A program made the position numbers and the translations under genes. Below the pieces are notes generated by a model that saw only the letters and a program-made list of their open reading frames with translations, did not search any database and was not told where the DNA came from. Below are positions 15,085 to 42,869 of a DNA stretch of 55,019 bases, one piece after another; positions within the stretch are counted from its first letter, which is position 1, and each line of letters begins with the position of its first letter. The DNA is from an uncultured Clostridia bacterium (GTDB taxonomy: Bacteria; Bacillota; Clostridia; Oscillospirales; Acutalibacteraceae), in contig CANRIZ010000018.1 in assembly GCA_947630835.1 (NCBI GenBank), positions 1 to 55,019 of the forward strand, given 5' to 3'.

Positions 15085-15909
15085 TCAACCGAACTCTTTT
15101 CCGTTTCTTCTCCAGTGAAAAAGATATTGCTGCGCAACGCCGTCATAGCCTTTGATACATTCGGGAAGCCCGTCGGGGTACATTTCGGAAACTATCCTTT
15201 TTACCCAAACGTCTTCGGGAAACGCCTCAAGCTTTCCGAAGCCGTAAAGCAGGGTGCATTCCGCAACCTTTTTCCCGACTCCCTTTATTTTAATAAGCTC
15301 CTCGCGTCCCGTTTCTATCGGCGAAGACTCGATTTTATCAAAATCCACCTCGCCGTCGGCAACCTTTTCGGCGGCGTCAAGTATGTACTTTGCCCTGAAG
15401 CCCGAACGCAGTACCGCCAAATCCTCAATTTTTAAATTTTTAAGCCTTTCCGCTTCGGGAAAAGAAAAACAGCCCTCCTCGATTTCCTCGCCGAAGGATT
15501 GACAAAGCCTTTCTATAATCCCCTTAATACTGGGTATGTTGTTGTTTTGCGAAATAATAAACGAACAAAGCGTTTCCCAAGGCTGTTGGCGCAGTATTCT
15601 TATGCCCGAAAACTCCCGAGTCGCTTTTTTCAGGTATTTGTCGGCGGAAAAGATGTTGACAAGCGCCTTGTAATCCCTGTCAAAATCAAGGTAACGCCTC
15701 AAAACCCCGTTAAACTCCTCGCGAGAGCAGCTGCATATGAGCTTACCGTCCTTTTGCAGCAAGCTGAAAACTCTGTCGCCGACAATGCCGCGCATACTCC
15801 CGTCCGCTTCTTTTTTCCATCTGAACGCCTGCCCGCAGTCAAGCATAAGCCCAAGATTAAAAACCTCGGGCAAATCTATTTCAAATTTTTCTTCCTTCAA
15901 TTTCTTCAC
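15085..15909 (-). CDS. OGG-type DNA glycosylase (8-oxoguanine repair, HhH-GPD)
   Basis: 274 residues. N-terminal DNA-glycosylase domain as in OGG1/AlkA, then a helix-hairpin-helix GPD domain with ILRQQPWETLCSFIISQNNN. The hairpin K-G-V-G-K-K214-V-A-E-C provides the lysine nucleophile, and PED233VW the catalytic aspartate, matching OGG1 Lys249 and Asp268. It should excise 8-oxoguanine with lyase activity; an AlkA-like specificity is the alternative but would lack the lysine. Monocistronic on the minus strand; the gap upstream carries a motif cluster. Confidence 0.88.
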   Translation of the reverse strand: MKKLKEEKFEIDLPEVFNLGLMLDCGQAFRWKKEADGSMRGIVGDRVFSLLQKDGKLICSCSREEFNGVLRRYLDFDRDYKALVNIFSADKYLKKATREFSGIRILRQQPWETLCSFIISQNNNIPSIKGIIERLCQSFGEEIEEGCFSFPEAERLKNLKIEDLAVLRSGFRAKYILDAAEKVADGEVDFDKIESSPIETGREELIKIKGVGKKVAECTLLYGFGKLEAFPEDVWVKRIVSEMYPDGLPECIKGYDGVAQQYLFHWRRNGKEFG

Positions 15910-16313
15910 TCCGCAATATTAGACAATTTTTTCTTACTTTTTTAGTCAAATCAGACAAGGTTATTTTGCACAAAAATCCGAACATCCGTTACTTAAAAAA
16001 TTACTACATCTTGTATAAAAACCGAGCTTTTTTTCAACTTTCGGTAAATGTTTAAAACTTCAAAAAAGTTATAAACATTTTGAAAAAAACGGTTCAAAGT
16101 ACGGGTTTTATGCCAATTTTGGCTCACTTATCTACATTTTGAACAGTGTTTTGAACATTTTTTGGGTAAAAATCATTATACTTTCCGTATAATTTTCGGG
16201 ATAAAAATTTTGTGTAAAATCCCATATTGACACAAAAATCCGACCGCTTCGGAATATTTTTGCTCCTGTCTTTAATACTAAAACATATACATTGAAAACG
16301 AGGAAAGCAAGAT
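15910..16313. other. 404-base AT-rich divergent gap with a TGTTYAAAA cluster
   Basis: No gene seen. The central 110 bases carry three exact copies of TGTTYAAAA: one forward (16049-16057) and two as TTTTGAACA (16137-16145 and 16149-16157). A near-consensus DnaA box TTATCTACA lies at 16128-16136, and TTATAAACA at 16069-16077. The same 9-mer recurs in the dnaN-dnaA gap. The gap must also hold the promoters of the OGG gene (-) and the small ORF (+); a TTGACA at 16227-16232 has no convincing -10. Confidence 0.6.
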
Positions 16314-16580
16314 ATGATTAAAGGCGTAAACAGGCAGGTACTTGAAATTCACGATACGGGCAGCAAATACTTTGAAAAAGCCATACTCTTTGTAAAGCCG
16401 GAATACTCAACCCTCAGCGAAAAACGCTTGAGAAACGCCGCGCAAAAAACCTTTGCCGGCTGTGATAAAATCCCGAATTGCAAAAGGCAAAAGGCGCTCG
16501 GCATTCTGCTTAAAGCGCTCGGTCTTTTTGCCTCGGCGGGTACGGGCGCCGTTATCACCTTTTTTCTGGTGAATCAATAA
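16314..16580 (+). CDS. Small putative membrane protein, unknown function
   Basis: 88 residues preceded by GAGGAAAG. The N-terminal two thirds is polar and basic, with a pattern (YFEKAILFVKPEY, then KRLRNAAQ) suggesting alpha helices. Residues 66-86 form one hydrophobic segment ending three residues from the C-terminus, as in a tail-anchored protein. I do not recognise a family. Its 3' end overlaps the last seven bases of the convergent amylase gene, with no terminator visible between them. Confidence 0.65.
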   Translation: MIKGVNRQVLEIHDTGSKYFEKAILFVKPEYSTLSEKRLRNAAQKTFAGCDKIPNCKRQKALGILLKALGLFASAGTGAVITFFLVNQ

Positions 16581-18738: not shown

Positions 18739-19323
18739 ATGCAAAAAGGAGTGATGATTACGCTTAAAAATATACCGGGAACGGCGCTCGAATGGACCGA
18801 GGGACTCAGCAAAAACGCTTTTGCGGTTCTGTCGCCCGTTATATCCGTAACCAAGGGCCTTACGCTCAGTCAATTAAAGGAGTTAACGGGGCTGGAGGGC
18901 TATACCATTCAGAATTGGGTAAAACGAGGCTGGGTAGAAAGCCCGTCGGGCAAACGCTACGCAGAACAGCAAATTGTAAGGATAATACTGATAAATATGC
19001 TGAGAAACGCTATGCAGCTTGAAAAAATAGTCGCGCTTATGGGTTACATAAACGGCAAGGTTGACGACCGAAGCGACGATATTATTCCCGACAGGGAGCT
19101 TTTTAATCTTCTGTGCTGCGTTATTTCGCAGATAAGCGAAAAAAACACAACGGACAAGTCGCAGATTATGGAAATAATCGAACTGGAGCTTCGGGATTAC
19201 AAGGGTCCCAATCCCGATTCAAAGCAACGGCTTGAAAGCGCTTTGCTTTGTATGACTTTGGGCTTTATCGCGTCGGAGGTTAAGAAAGAATCCGACATGG
19301 AATTTTCAAAATTATTGGGTTAA
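18739..19323 (+). CDS. DUF1836 family protein, putative HTH regulator
   Basis: 194 residues from the first ATG. The region LTLSQLKELTGLEGYTIQNWVKRGW (about residues 40-65) reads as a MerR-like helix-turn-helix, and the remainder is helical; this matches DUF1836, a Firmicute family of unknown role. The true start is uncertain: ATG at 18739, or GTG 18751 / ATG 18754 with AAAAAGGA immediately before them. The promoter places the transcript start within a few bases of 18739, so the message is leaderless or nearly so. Possibly followed by a 33-codon ORF before a terminator. Confidence 0.8.
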   Translation: MQKGVMITLKNIPGTALEWTEGLSKNAFAVLSPVISVTKGLTLSQLKELTGLEGYTIQNWVKRGWVESPSGKRYAEQQIVRIILINMLRNAMQLEKIVALMGYINGKVDDRSDDIIPDRELFNLLCCVISQISEKNTTDKSQIMEIIELELRDYKGPNPDSKQRLESALLCMTLGFIASEVKKESDMEFSKLLG

Positions 19324-39974: not shown

Positions 39975-40223
39975 TTAAACCATTTCGTAAACTACGCCGT
40001 TATATTCAAAGCTGTCTCCCCGCCTCAATTTTTTACCTCTCATAACGCAGGGTTCGCCGTTTGTTTTTATCAACCCGTCTGCTATTAACATTTTCGCCTG
40101 CCCGCCCGTTGAAACTATACCCGCATATTTCAAAGCGGAATCAAGCCTGATAAAATCCGTATCAAGTTTAAGCTCTTTTTTCTTTTTTTCGGCAACCCGC
40201 GCCGTAATTCTTATTTTTTTCAT
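39975..40223 (-). CDS. yaaA: S4-domain RNA-binding protein YaaA
   Basis: 82 residues; S4-type RNA-binding motif with FIRLDSALKYAGIVSTGGQAKMLI and NGEPCVMRGKKLRRGD. The four-base ATGA overlap with the dnaN stop gives coupled translation. Conserved dnaN-yaaA-recF order; role probably in ribosome assembly. Confidence 0.9.
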   Translation of the reverse strand: MKKIRITARVAEKKKKELKLDTDFIRLDSALKYAGIVSTGGQAKMLIADGLIKTNGEPCVMRGKKLRRGDSFEYNGVVYEMV

Positions 40224-41320
40224 TTGAGCTTAACGGGAAGAACAAGGAACAGGAAATTGTCGCCCTGTTTAGGTAAAATAATTATAGGCAAAACGGGGCT
40301 TCCGAGCTTAATAATAACCTCGTCCGTTTCGCACACCCTTAATGCGTCGAGCAAAAACCTGTTGTTAAAACCGATTTCTATTTTGTTTCCCTCAATTTTT
40401 GCGGGCAGCTTGTCGTTTGCGTTTCCCAAAGTCGTGGAAGAAGAAATTTTAATAAAATCGTCGTCAAAAATACATTTTATGGGACTTTTTGCCCTGTCGG
40501 TAATAATAAGCGAGGTTCTCTCTATACTGCTTATCAACATTCTTGTATTTACAAGGGCCTTTGTGGTTTCGTTTATCGCTATTGCGGATTTATAATTTAA
40601 AAATTCGCCGTCAAGCAGTCTTGAAACCAAAATATAATCGTCTATTTCAAAAACTATATGCCTTTTTCCAATATTTAACGAAACGGGTTTTTCATTGTCC
40701 GTAATAAGCTTTACTACCTCGTTGAGAGCCTTTTTCGGAACAACAAAAATTTGCTCCTCCCCGCTGTAATCTATTGTTTCGTTCCTTATTGCAAGCCTGA
40801 AGCCGTCAACCGCAACGAGCCTTACCGAATTTTCGCCTATTTCAAATCTTACCCCGGTATGAACCACCTTTGTATCGTTCTCGGCGGCGGCAAAAATTGT
40901 TTTTCTTATCATATCCTTTAAAATTTCGCCCTTTATAACTATAGGAAAGCTGCTGTTTACGGACGGAAGCTCGGGATATTCCTGAGCGTTTATGCCTTTA
41001 AGCGAAAATTCGGCGTCACCGCTCTTGATTTTTGCGGACATCCTTTCGTCAACCTCAATTTTTACGGTACTGGCGGGAAGACTTCTTAAAATATCGCAAA
41101 GCACTTTTGCGTTTAAAATTATACTGCCCTGTTCTTCAACCTTTGCCTGCGTGGAAGTTATAACGCCTACCTCGAGGTCGTAACCCGTTACGGTAATCGT
41201 ATTTTCCGTGGTGGTAAGCAAAATACCTTCTATTGCCGGTATTGTTGATTTGTTCGAAACCGCCCTTTGGACATTTGAACATATTTCCGAAAATTTTTGA
41301 CAGTCACAGATGAATTTCAT
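40220..41320 (-). CDS. dnaN: DNA polymerase III beta sliding clamp
   Basis: 366 residues, three-fold clamp architecture. Recognised from the N-terminal MKFICDCQKFSEICSNVQRAV, RFEIGENSVRLVAVDGFRLA in the second domain, and the C-terminal partner-binding end VLPVKLK (usually MPMRL, here diverged). Separated from dnaA by 229 bases that carry the motif cluster. Confidence 0.97.
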   Translation of the reverse strand: MKFICDCQKFSEICSNVQRAVSNKSTIPAIEGILLTTTENTITVTGYDLEVGVITSTQAKVEEQGSIILNAKVLCDILRSLPASTVKIEVDERMSAKIKSGDAEFSLKGINAQEYPELPSVNSSFPIVIKGEILKDMIRKTIFAAAENDTKVVHTGVRFEIGENSVRLVAVDGFRLAIRNETIDYSGEEQIFVVPKKALNEVVKLITDNEKPVSLNIGKRHIVFEIDDYILVSRLLDGEFLNYKSAIAINETTKALVNTRMLISSIERTSLIITDRAKSPIKCIFDDDFIKISSSTTLGNANDKLPAKIEGNKIEIGFNNRFLLDALRVCETDEVIIKLGSPVLPIIILPKQGDNFLFLVLPVKLK

Positions 41321-41388
41321 AATTTTTTCCTTTCCGAAGATAAATAAATATAATTTAAATAAAGTATTAGAATTAGGGAACGGCGAAA

Positions 41389-41544
41389 ATGTTTAAATCT
41401 TTTAAAACCCTTTTAAGTTCCGCGCTTTTTTGAAAAATAAATATGTTTAATAAATGTTCAAAATAAAATATTTTTAAACATAAAATTTAAGATAATTTTT
41501 AACTGTTCAAAACCGACGTGTTTAAAACAAAAACTTGTTTAAAA
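41389..41544. other. Cluster of TGTTYAAA motifs between dnaN and dnaA, probable oriC component
   Basis: Within 156 bases of the 229-base gap there are TGTTTAAAT (41390), TGTTTAATA (41444), TGTTCAAAA (41455), TTTAAACA (41473, reverse), TGTTCAAAA (41504), TGTTTAAAA (41519) and TGTTTAAAA (41536). Four are exact TGTTYAAAA. The 9-mer keeps six of nine bases of the classical DnaA box TGTGGATAA. The remainder of the gap is AT-rich. By position it could be the DnaA-box array or a dnaA/dnaN autoregulatory site. Confidence 0.6.
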
Positions 41545-41549
41545 CTTTT

Positions 41550-42869
41550 TTAATATTCCTGAACGTTCTTTATAATATCCTCGACCGTTTTTCTGAAAAG
41601 AAAATCCTCGTCCATTTTTTTTCTTGTCATATCAATGGAATGTTTAACGGTCGAATGTTGCTTGCCGCCGAAATAATTTCCGATTTCAACCAGGGAAAGA
41701 CCGGTTATTTCCCTCATAATATACATGGCGACCTGCCTTGCGTCTTTAATATTTTTATCTCTTTTTTCGGACATAATGTTTTCGGCGGAAATTCCGAAGG
41801 TATTTGCAATGTTATCGATAATTTTTGAATTTATTACGGTAACGGGCTGGCTGTTGTTGGTAAGCTCTTTAATAGCCTTTTTTGCAATTTCGAGCGACGG
41901 CGAAACGTTTGTAAGCGAGCAAAGAGACTTGATTTTTTTAACCGCGCTTTCAAGCTGACGCACGTTGTTTTTTAACTCGGAAGCAAAAAATTCAACAATT
42001 TCGTCCGAAAGCTTAAAATCAAACTGCTCGGCTTTGTTTTTGATAATCGCCATTCTCGTTTCAAAATCCGGAGGCTGAATATCCGCCATCAAGCCCCATT
42101 CAAATCTGGTTTTAAGCCTTTCCTGCAAAATTTGAATTTCGTTCGGCGGCCTGTCCGAAGTCAAAACAATCTGCTTGCCGTATTCGGTCAAAGCGTTAAA
42201 GGTATGGAAAAATTCCTCCTCCGTCTGTTCCTTTTTAGCTATAAACTGAATGTCGTCCATTAAAAGGGCGTCGGCGTTTCTGTATTTTTCGTGAAATTCA
42301 TAGGTGGTTTTGTTCCTGATATGGTAAACCAAATCGTTTGTAAAATTTTCGCTCGTTGTGTAAATGATGTTCGCCCGTGGATTTCTTTTTTTCATCTCGT
42401 TTTCAATAGCTTTTAAAAGGTGGGTTTTTCCGAGACCGGATTTTCCGTAAATATAAAGCGGATTGTATGATTTACCGGGATCCTCCGCAACCTTTTTTGC
42501 TGCTGCGTAGGCATAGTTATTGGATTTGCCGACAACGAAGTTTTCAAAATTATCGCCTATGGTTCTTTCGGAAACCTTTGTATTCTCGTTCGCCTGTTCA
42601 AATTCGCCGTCCTTGAGCTGCTCATAAATAAATTCAATTTCCACTTCAAAGCCGAGAACCTCGTTAAAAGCGTTGTTTATGGTTTCCGAATGTCTTTTTA
42701 TTATCAAAGGGAAAAGAAATTCGTTATTAACGGAAAGCACGGCCTTTTGACCGTCGAAGGATTTTAAAGTGATGGGCGAAAACCAAAGATTAAACGCACT
42801 GTCGGTTACGTTGAGATTTTCTTTTGCATATTCGCAAACGGTTTTCCACATATCGTTAAGAGATTCCAT
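41550..42869 (-). CDS. dnaA: Chromosomal replication initiator DnaA
   Basis: 439 residues. Domain I 1-80, short linker, AAA+ domain with Walker A GKSGLGKTH (142-150), Walker B LLMDDIQF and the arginine-finger region; domain IV from about 340. The DNA-binding helix reads FGGK403Q404HSTVKHS, where most DnaA proteins have GGRDHTTV. The E. coli equivalent of Gln404 is Asp433, a base-contacting residue. The basic loop reads KNIKDARQ instead of the usual ..PRQ. A start without a strong ribosome binding site (GGAG 11 bases upstream) fits low expression. Confidence 0.97.
   Translation of the reverse strand: MESLNDMWKTVCEYAKENLNVTDSAFNLWFSPITLKSFDGQKAVLSVNNEFLFPLIIKRHSETINNAFNEVLGFEVEIEFIYEQLKDGEFEQANENTKVSERTIGDNFENFVVGKSNNYAYAAAKKVAEDPGKSYNPLYIYGKSGLGKTHLLKAIENEMKKRNPRANIIYTTSENFTNDLVYHIRNKTTYEFHEKYRNADALLMDDIQFIAKKEQTEEEFFHTFNALTEYGKQIVLTSDRPPNEIQILQERLKTRFEWGLMADIQPPDFETRMAIIKNKAEQFDFKLSDEIVEFFASELKNNVRQLESAVKKIKSLCSLTNVSPSLEIAKKAIKELTNNSQPVTVINSKIIDNIANTFGISAENIMSEKRDKNIKDARQVAMYIMREITGLSLVEIGNYFGGKQHSTVKHSIDMTRKKMDEDFLFRKTVEDIIKNVQEY

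Follow-up and report, generated by a model that had tools for sequence, protein, structure and literature searches.

We analyzed the gap between dnaN and dnaA in a 55,019-nucleotide contig from an uncultured member of the Clostridia (the window) and found an array of 9-mers that we read, with a probability of roughly 0.86, as the DnaA-binding half of the replication origin (oriC), written in a shifted box, TTTTRAACA; a change of DnaA residue 433 (E. coli numbering) would have driven the shift, and the set of boxes would have moved along with it. The array and its context, the covariation of residue and box among relatives and a parallel change at a second locus are direct observations (Table 1). 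The results point to a natural recoding of a highly conserved recognition step in a gut Clostridia group, in which the origin box changed, apparently together with the DnaA residue.

The gap spans 229 bases (41321–41549) with a GC content of 0.21. TTTTRAACA is TGTTYAAAA read on the opposite strand, and the orientation of the boxes follows the direction of dnaA. TGTTYAAAA occurs on the + strand at 41455, 41504, 41519 and 41536 and on the − strand at 41472–41480; with the copy at 41390, the gap contains six TGTTYAAA. An earlier sequence-only reading had counted seven motifs of this type, which holds once the one-mismatch TGTTTAATA (41444–41452) is added, and four exact ones, where there are five. 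Dinucleotide shuffling of the gap gave a mean of 0.083 exact copies, and five or more were reached in none of the 5,000 shuffles. A scan free of any motif returned TTTTAAACA as the 9-mer with the most near-copies, eight at no more than one mismatch. All five exact boxes retain TTWT at positions 1–4 and ACA at positions 7–9 of the canonical box TTWTNCACA and have A in place of C at position 6. The suggestion that the motif had lost the GG of TTATCCACA thus stands for position 6 (C to A) and falls for position 5, where the E. coli consensus allows any letter.

The surroundings are those expected of a DnaA-dependent origin. If the TTTTRAACA 9-mers are boxes, the 229 bases hold five DnaA-type sites, where at least three are expected; the array lies at dnaA and dnaN, and the sign of the GC skew flips at about 42–43 kb, at the array, a turn that had been proposed as a check on the origin. 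DnaA-trios are expected 10–13 bases from a box, and the spacing is 13 bases in the window and 12–13 in most relatives shown.

Table 1. Positions of candidate boxes, genes and associated features in the window
Feature	Position	Strand	Basis
Box TTTTAAACA	41536..41544	−	exact motif match
Box TTTTAAACA	41519..41527	−	exact motif match
Box TTTTGAACA	41504..41512	−	exact motif match
Box TTTTAAACA, reversed orientation	41472..41480	+	exact motif match
Box TTTTGAACA	41455..41463	−	exact motif match
Possible weak box TATTAAACA (TGTTTAATA as TGTTYAAA-type)	41444..41452	−	one mismatch
Trio-proximal box ATTTAAACA, end 13 bases ahead of trios	41390..41398	−	equal position in relatives
DnaA-trio-like run CTAATTCTAATACTT, behind a GC-richer 13-base spacer	41362..41376	−	
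dnaN	40220..41320	−	Pfam beta-clamp domains
dnaA, 439 aa	41550..42869	−	Pfam DnaA_N, Bac_DnaA, Bac_DnaA_C above cut-off; translation
Codons for KQHSTVKH (domain IV recognition helix), equal to E. coli RDHTTVLH 432–439	41640..41663	−	alignment to E. coli DnaA and solved DnaA structures
Q433 codon	41658..41660	−	
Box TTTTGAACA, partner in 3-bp-spaced pair	16149..16157	+	exact motif match
Box TTTTGAACA, partner in 3-bp-spaced pair	16137..16145	+	exact motif match
Third box-like 9-mer TTATCTACA, adjoining the pair	16128..16136	+	
Box TTTTAAACA, second array	16049..16057	−	exact motif match
Box-like TTATAAACA, second array	16069..16077	+	
OGG-type DNA glycosylase gene, downstream of second array	15085..15909	−	Pfam OGG_N, HhH-GPD
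Small ORF, 88 aa, other flank of second array	16314..16580	+	

Across the whole window, TGTTYAAAA occurs 11 times against an expectation of 3.4 ± 1.6, a number reached in 0 of 100 shuffles. Outside the array there are three scattered copies (10026, 26699 and 34364), as had been read by eye, and three more within 16049–16157. The enrichment extends to the genome (G000; 2.10 Mb in 39 contigs), where the proposed count gave 163 copies against 87 for the reversed control. The alternative that canonical boxes elsewhere serve the origin could appeal to the 12 exact copies of TTATCCACA in the genome, but the reversed control has 11, so that the motif shows no enrichment, and the window, which includes dnaA, the trios and the turn of the skew, contains no exact TTATCCACA at all, let alone a canonical array, in line with the sequence-only reading; we consider this alternative extremely improbable. 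Same-strand pairs of exact boxes no more than 30 bases apart were found at three places in the 2.10 Mb: the dnaA–dnaN gap, the 16-kb cluster and contig C2 at 18754–18783. Among opposite-strand pairs, searched only in the arrangement TTTTRAACA then TGTTYAAAA, the dnaA–dnaN gap was the one place. The C2 pair (locus L182, G000:C2:16800–20800, positions 1955–1984), the genome's third TTTTRAACA pair, has an extra ATTTGAACA in between and is flanked by ORFs resembling a thymidylate kinase and a MacB-like ABC permease, names given from reading the translations.

The protein encoded next to the array has DnaA domains I, III and IV above the Pfam cut-offs and keeps Arg399 of the E. coli protein. Its recognition helix departs from the family at residue 433, where Asp, a contact to the bases in E. 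coli, is replaced by Gln; residue 438 is Lys. The residue equal to D433 is described as highly conserved among all classes, and the same source assigns D433 and L438 to box position 7, not 6 (PMC8235120).

We collected 180 dnaA loci, consisting of 55 from the first 59 genomes (G008, G013, G038 and G039 had no dnaA match), 25 and 99 loci among the matches listed, and G061. In the wider set of relatives, 184 of 197 genomes had a dnaA match, and loci were taken from among the matches listed. Omitted were the near-duplicates G112, G156, G208 and G150, G207 with an internal stop, and some low-scoring loci; the locus equal to contig C8 of G001 in match position and identity was left out of all counts, and 25 family-level dnaA loci stand outside the 180-locus counts. 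In G025, the contig ends shortly past dnaA. Residue 433 in the 180 proteins, window included, was Asp in 110, Asn in 27, His in 23, Thr in 17, Gln in 2 and Ser in 1, and parsimony placed about nine changes between D/H and N/T/Q/S within the order. The 35 loci of the window's genus grouped into a single clade in the tree of domain III, with 19 T/Q genomes (17 T, 2 Q) and 16 N genomes. In the relatives' dnaA–dnaN gaps, a check proposed by the sequence-only reading, the motif was either kept or swapped for a clade-specific variant. Five genomes of the genus (L009–L013) had dnaA–dnaN gaps of about 390–1120 bases, with GC-richer stretches beside dnaA and the box-plus-trio part retained.

Box position 6 follows residue 433. 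Searching the dnaA–dnaN gaps for TTWTNNACA, with positions 5 and 6 free, we found C at position 6 (C6) in 189/302 boxes of Asp genomes and 43/68 of His genomes, against 9/100 with Asn, 3/71 with Thr, 0/10 with Gln and 0/2 with Ser. The box adjacent to the trios was located in 126 of the 180 loci (D 65/110, H 19/23, N 23/27, T 16/17, Q 2/2, S 1/1) by requiring a gap no shorter than 120 bases, a trio score of at least 10.5 and six of the seven fixed letters; it had C6 in 53/65 Asp, 11/19 His, 1/23 Asn, 0/16 Thr, 0/2 Gln and 0/1 Ser genomes. Locating it by TTWT and spacing only (trio score of at least 11; 84/180 loci) gave C6 in 35/39 Asp, 6/10 His, 0/18 Asn and 0/17 T/Q/S genomes, with a preference for G6 in the Asn (13/18) and A6 in the T/Q/S genomes (13/17). 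Positions 7–9 of the trio box were mostly A, C and A in the N and T/Q/S genomes, with some variation at 7 and 9 in Asp genomes, and the change thus affects position 6 only, apart from position 5 in T/Q/S genomes.

Using corrected mutual information over DnaA columns 130–467 of the E. coli protein, we found column 433 to be the most informative about box position 6 (0.513, n = 126), followed by 438 (0.441). In a thinned set (n = 78), column 433 remained first, narrowly (0.173 vs. 0.163). Another column ranked first for box position 5. The second rank of residue 438 raises the alternative that the change from L to K or N there, or several residues together, determines the box and that 433 is a passenger. 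Within the genus, 18 of the 19 T/Q genomes have K at 438 and all 16 N genomes have N there, and position 5 is unlike between the K and N groups; as 438 has also changed there, the two residues are confounded in the genus. Outside it, lines with N or S at 433 have V, I, L, H or T at 438 and are mostly without C6, and column 438 falls outside the top eight of the thinned set. A determining role of 438, or of several residues together, appears unlikely, and we retain residue 433 as the probable leading one.

The association is not limited to the genus. Outside it, C6 was found at the trio box in 53/65 Asp against 1/8 N and S genomes (p = 2e-4) and in 189/302 against 8/39 gap boxes (p = 6e-7). A tree-based test of correlated evolution preferred the dependent over the independent model for the trio box (LR 20.6, 4 df, p = 4e-4) and for the majority of gap boxes (LR 18.7, p = 9e-4), and with His counted as changed gave LR 14.4 for both box measures (p = 0.006). 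The tree was built from domain III only and some fitted rates were at their bounds; the test supports a linked change of residue 433 and box.

Mutational drift in AT-rich DNA would offer a simpler account, with TTTTRAACA a decayed TTATCCACA or a chance word: AT pairs make up 79% of the gap, and AT-rich gaps are the rule among N/T/Q genomes. The shuffled gaps already argue against this, and the rpmH–dnaA gap (501 bases, GC 0.20), equally AT-rich, contains zero TGTTYAAAA; on the density check that had been proposed, this second AT-rich gap beside dnaA thus falls short of the array. Asp genomes of equal AT content show no comparable loss of C6 in the sample: at a gap GC below 0.36, the trio box had C6 in 16/25 Asp genomes and 4/10 His genomes, against 1/20 with Asn, 0/10 with Thr and 0/2 with Gln (1/32 for N/T/Q). 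The parallel change at the second array also speaks against drift. On the shuffles, the rpmH–dnaA gap and the retention of C6 in low-GC Asp genomes, we rejected drift, to which we give next to no credence. The claim that this lineage uses a shifted DnaA box is supported by the array, the relatives and a covarying residue that probably contacts the base.

The correspondence has exceptions. The Asn genome G124 (family f14, RNH) retains TTTTCCACA at the trio box, some f14 Asn genomes within the order keep CC at positions 5–6, and, among Asn genomes with C6, a single CC box occurs in G202 and GC boxes occur in G231. In the 23 of 180 loci with His at 433, the trio box has C6 in 11/15 outside the window's family and 0/4 inside; Lys at 433 was seen in G277, G302 and G360, whose examined regions contained no CC box. 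His and Lys at 433 are further natural variants of the code.

As a small held-out test with a rule fixed beforehand, we studied 69 genomes of the class from outside the order, 29 plus 40 chosen by family from 125 of 128 genomes with a match, mostly low-scoring. Residues other than Asp were present in only 10 (H 3, K 2, N 4, S 1). C6 occurred in 118/223 gap boxes for Asp against 4/22 for N, S and K (p = 0.003; seven N/S/K genomes), with K absent from the rule set. For N alone the count was 3/8, which does not set it apart from Asp (p = 0.48), and the trio box had C6 in 1/3 N genomes and in only 30/50 Asp genomes. The Ser genome G363 had AA at positions 5–6 in 4/5 boxes. The test points in the right direction for S and K, and Asn at 433 looks permissive, not strict.

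A second array of the same 9-mers lies at 15910–16313, with an ogg-like gene on one side and a small ORF on the other, about 25 kb from the dnaA–dnaN gap. Its three exact copies compare with 0.14 expected and were reached in 3 of 5,000 dinucleotide shuffles. The small ORF has a similar reading frame in at least one relative, G004. The box pair with 3-bp spacing is found ahead of ogg at 26 of the genus's 28 loci; in the two others, the contig ends inside ogg (G010) or a single TGTTCAAAA is found (G029). In K[TQ]H genomes with the pair, both boxes are TGTTCAAAA (9/9), and in RNH genomes the second box is TGT[TC]GA[AT]AA (15/15) and the first TGTTGAAAA in 10 and TGTTCAAAA in 5; residue 433 is unassigned for two genomes with the pair, G060 and G008, where the DnaA match is absent. 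In other genera of the family, 9/16 Asp genomes have CC boxes upstream of ogg (TGTGGAAAA, TGTGGATAA or the reverse). Within 520 bases upstream of ogg at 57 loci, CC boxes made up 12/25 of the boxes with Asp and 6/20 with His, and 0/178 with N/T/Q/S/K; for any C6 the counts were 16/25, 9/20 and 19/178. These counts lack a residue for G060, G008 and G247 (DnaA cut off), and G010 added zero boxes. The 19 C6 boxes of the N/T/Q/S/K genomes are GC, TC or AC, never CC; those of T genomes (10/50 boxes) and Q genomes (5/18) count against the reading. G268 (KSH), from another genus, has GA in 2/4 boxes upstream of ogg, as in the window. E. coli DnaA prefers box pairs 2–3 bp apart (PMC11317965), and by this analogy the 3-bp pair upstream of ogg appears to be a conserved double box for DnaA located away from oriC.

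Binding of the array by Spo0A or another regulator in place of DnaA would be another explanation. Spo0A boxes have the core TGTCGAA. Of the 39 genomes of the genus, 37 have the Spo0A_C domain, among them all 27 good ones, and the trio-proximal TTTTCGACA/TTATCGACA of most RNH genomes holds TGTCGAA in reverse, resembling a Spo0A box. All five exact boxes of the array are TTTTRAACA (TTTTAAACA/TTTTGAACA), not TGTCGAA; in addition, the link between box change and DnaA residue 433 also holds in lines beyond the genus, and the DnaA-trio spacing is retained. We regard a regulator in place of DnaA as very unlikely. Given the Spo0A-like core in the trio box and Spo0A in the genus, the RNH trio-proximal box may be a site common to DnaA and Spo0A. 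This TTTTCGACA/TTATCGACA form was seen in 12/16 RNH genomes of the genus (L021–L037), and the other gap boxes were often CA or TA.

With DnaA as the probable binder, we infer the binding, the base contact and the order of the changes as follows. Domain IV of DnaA would bind the TTTTRAACA 9-mers between dnaA and dnaN, and the box 13 bases ahead of the DnaA-trios would nucleate a filament melting the adjoining AT-rich DNA, as in the basal unwinding system of B. subtilis. Residue 433 would read base 6: Asp would accept C, and Gln, Thr and Ser, and mostly Asn too, would refuse it and favor A, or, with Asn, G at the trio-proximal box. Pairing of Asp with C and of Gln or Asn with A would fit ordinary side-chain chemistry. 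We propose that the position-6 preference changed because residue 433 of the recognition helix changed, with 433 leading and 438 adjusting position 5. A6 is found in 97/302 gap boxes of Asp genomes and is thus possible without loss of Asp; it may have been the bridge that let boxes and protein change without a lethal step. The box set, including the extra-origin array upstream of the ogg-like gene, would have changed along with residue 433. A broader version, in which a simple code from residue 433 to base 6 was rewritten repeatedly within one order, with oriC and extra-origin DnaA sites following each time and the species' origins becoming mutually unreadable, strikes us as slightly better than an even bet.

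The DnaA box is regarded as almost universal, and the natural series from Asp to Asn, Thr, Gln and Ser, with matching boxes at two loci, makes the DnaA recognition code directly testable and illustrates how many sites can change along with an essential protein. If the broader version is true, one essential initiator and a genome-wide set of sites were switched together several times. Origin-finding programs that depend on TTATCCACA and allow few mismatches may give a wrong reading of such genomes.

A literature search, with most subscription papers outside its scope, gave no match for the 9-mers TGTTCAAAA, TTTTGAACA, TGTTTAAAA, TTTTAAACA or TTTTCGACA as whole words or for D433N with the DnaA box, and no description of a position-6 shift in work on DnaA-box specificity or coevolution. 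All 9-mers that a review tabulates as high-affinity boxes have C6 (PMC4285127), and the known departures from the canonical box keep it. The Helicobacter or epsilonproteobacterial box TCATTCACA, with the core TTCAC and an altered DnaA helix (PMC5043019, PMC4285127), is likewise lineage specific and attributed to changes in the DNA-binding motif of DnaA; the H. pylori box differs at positions 2 and 5 and, unlike the window, retains C6 and the Asp–His pair. The Thermotoga maritima box AAACCTACCACC (PMC4285127) also departs from the canonical one, but is a 12-mer of a different layout. A survey of the basal unwinding system (DnaA box, spacer and DnaA-trios), in which the better box was allowed up to two mismatches to the standard motif, reported a peak of box–trio spacers at 10–13 bp (PMC8287927); the window likewise has CTA-type trios at a distance of 13 bases from a box, next to dnaN, and differs in the box sequence. 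The ogg-upstream pair, known here from its letters only, shares the spacing of the E. coli double DnaA box (2–3 bp; PMC11317965) and departs from it in sequence. The canonical box of E. coli and B. subtilis (TTATCCACA; TTWTNCACA) is matched in its 9-mer length, orientation, TTWT....ACA frame and clustering between dnaA and dnaN, whereas the window has A for C6 and Gln for D433.
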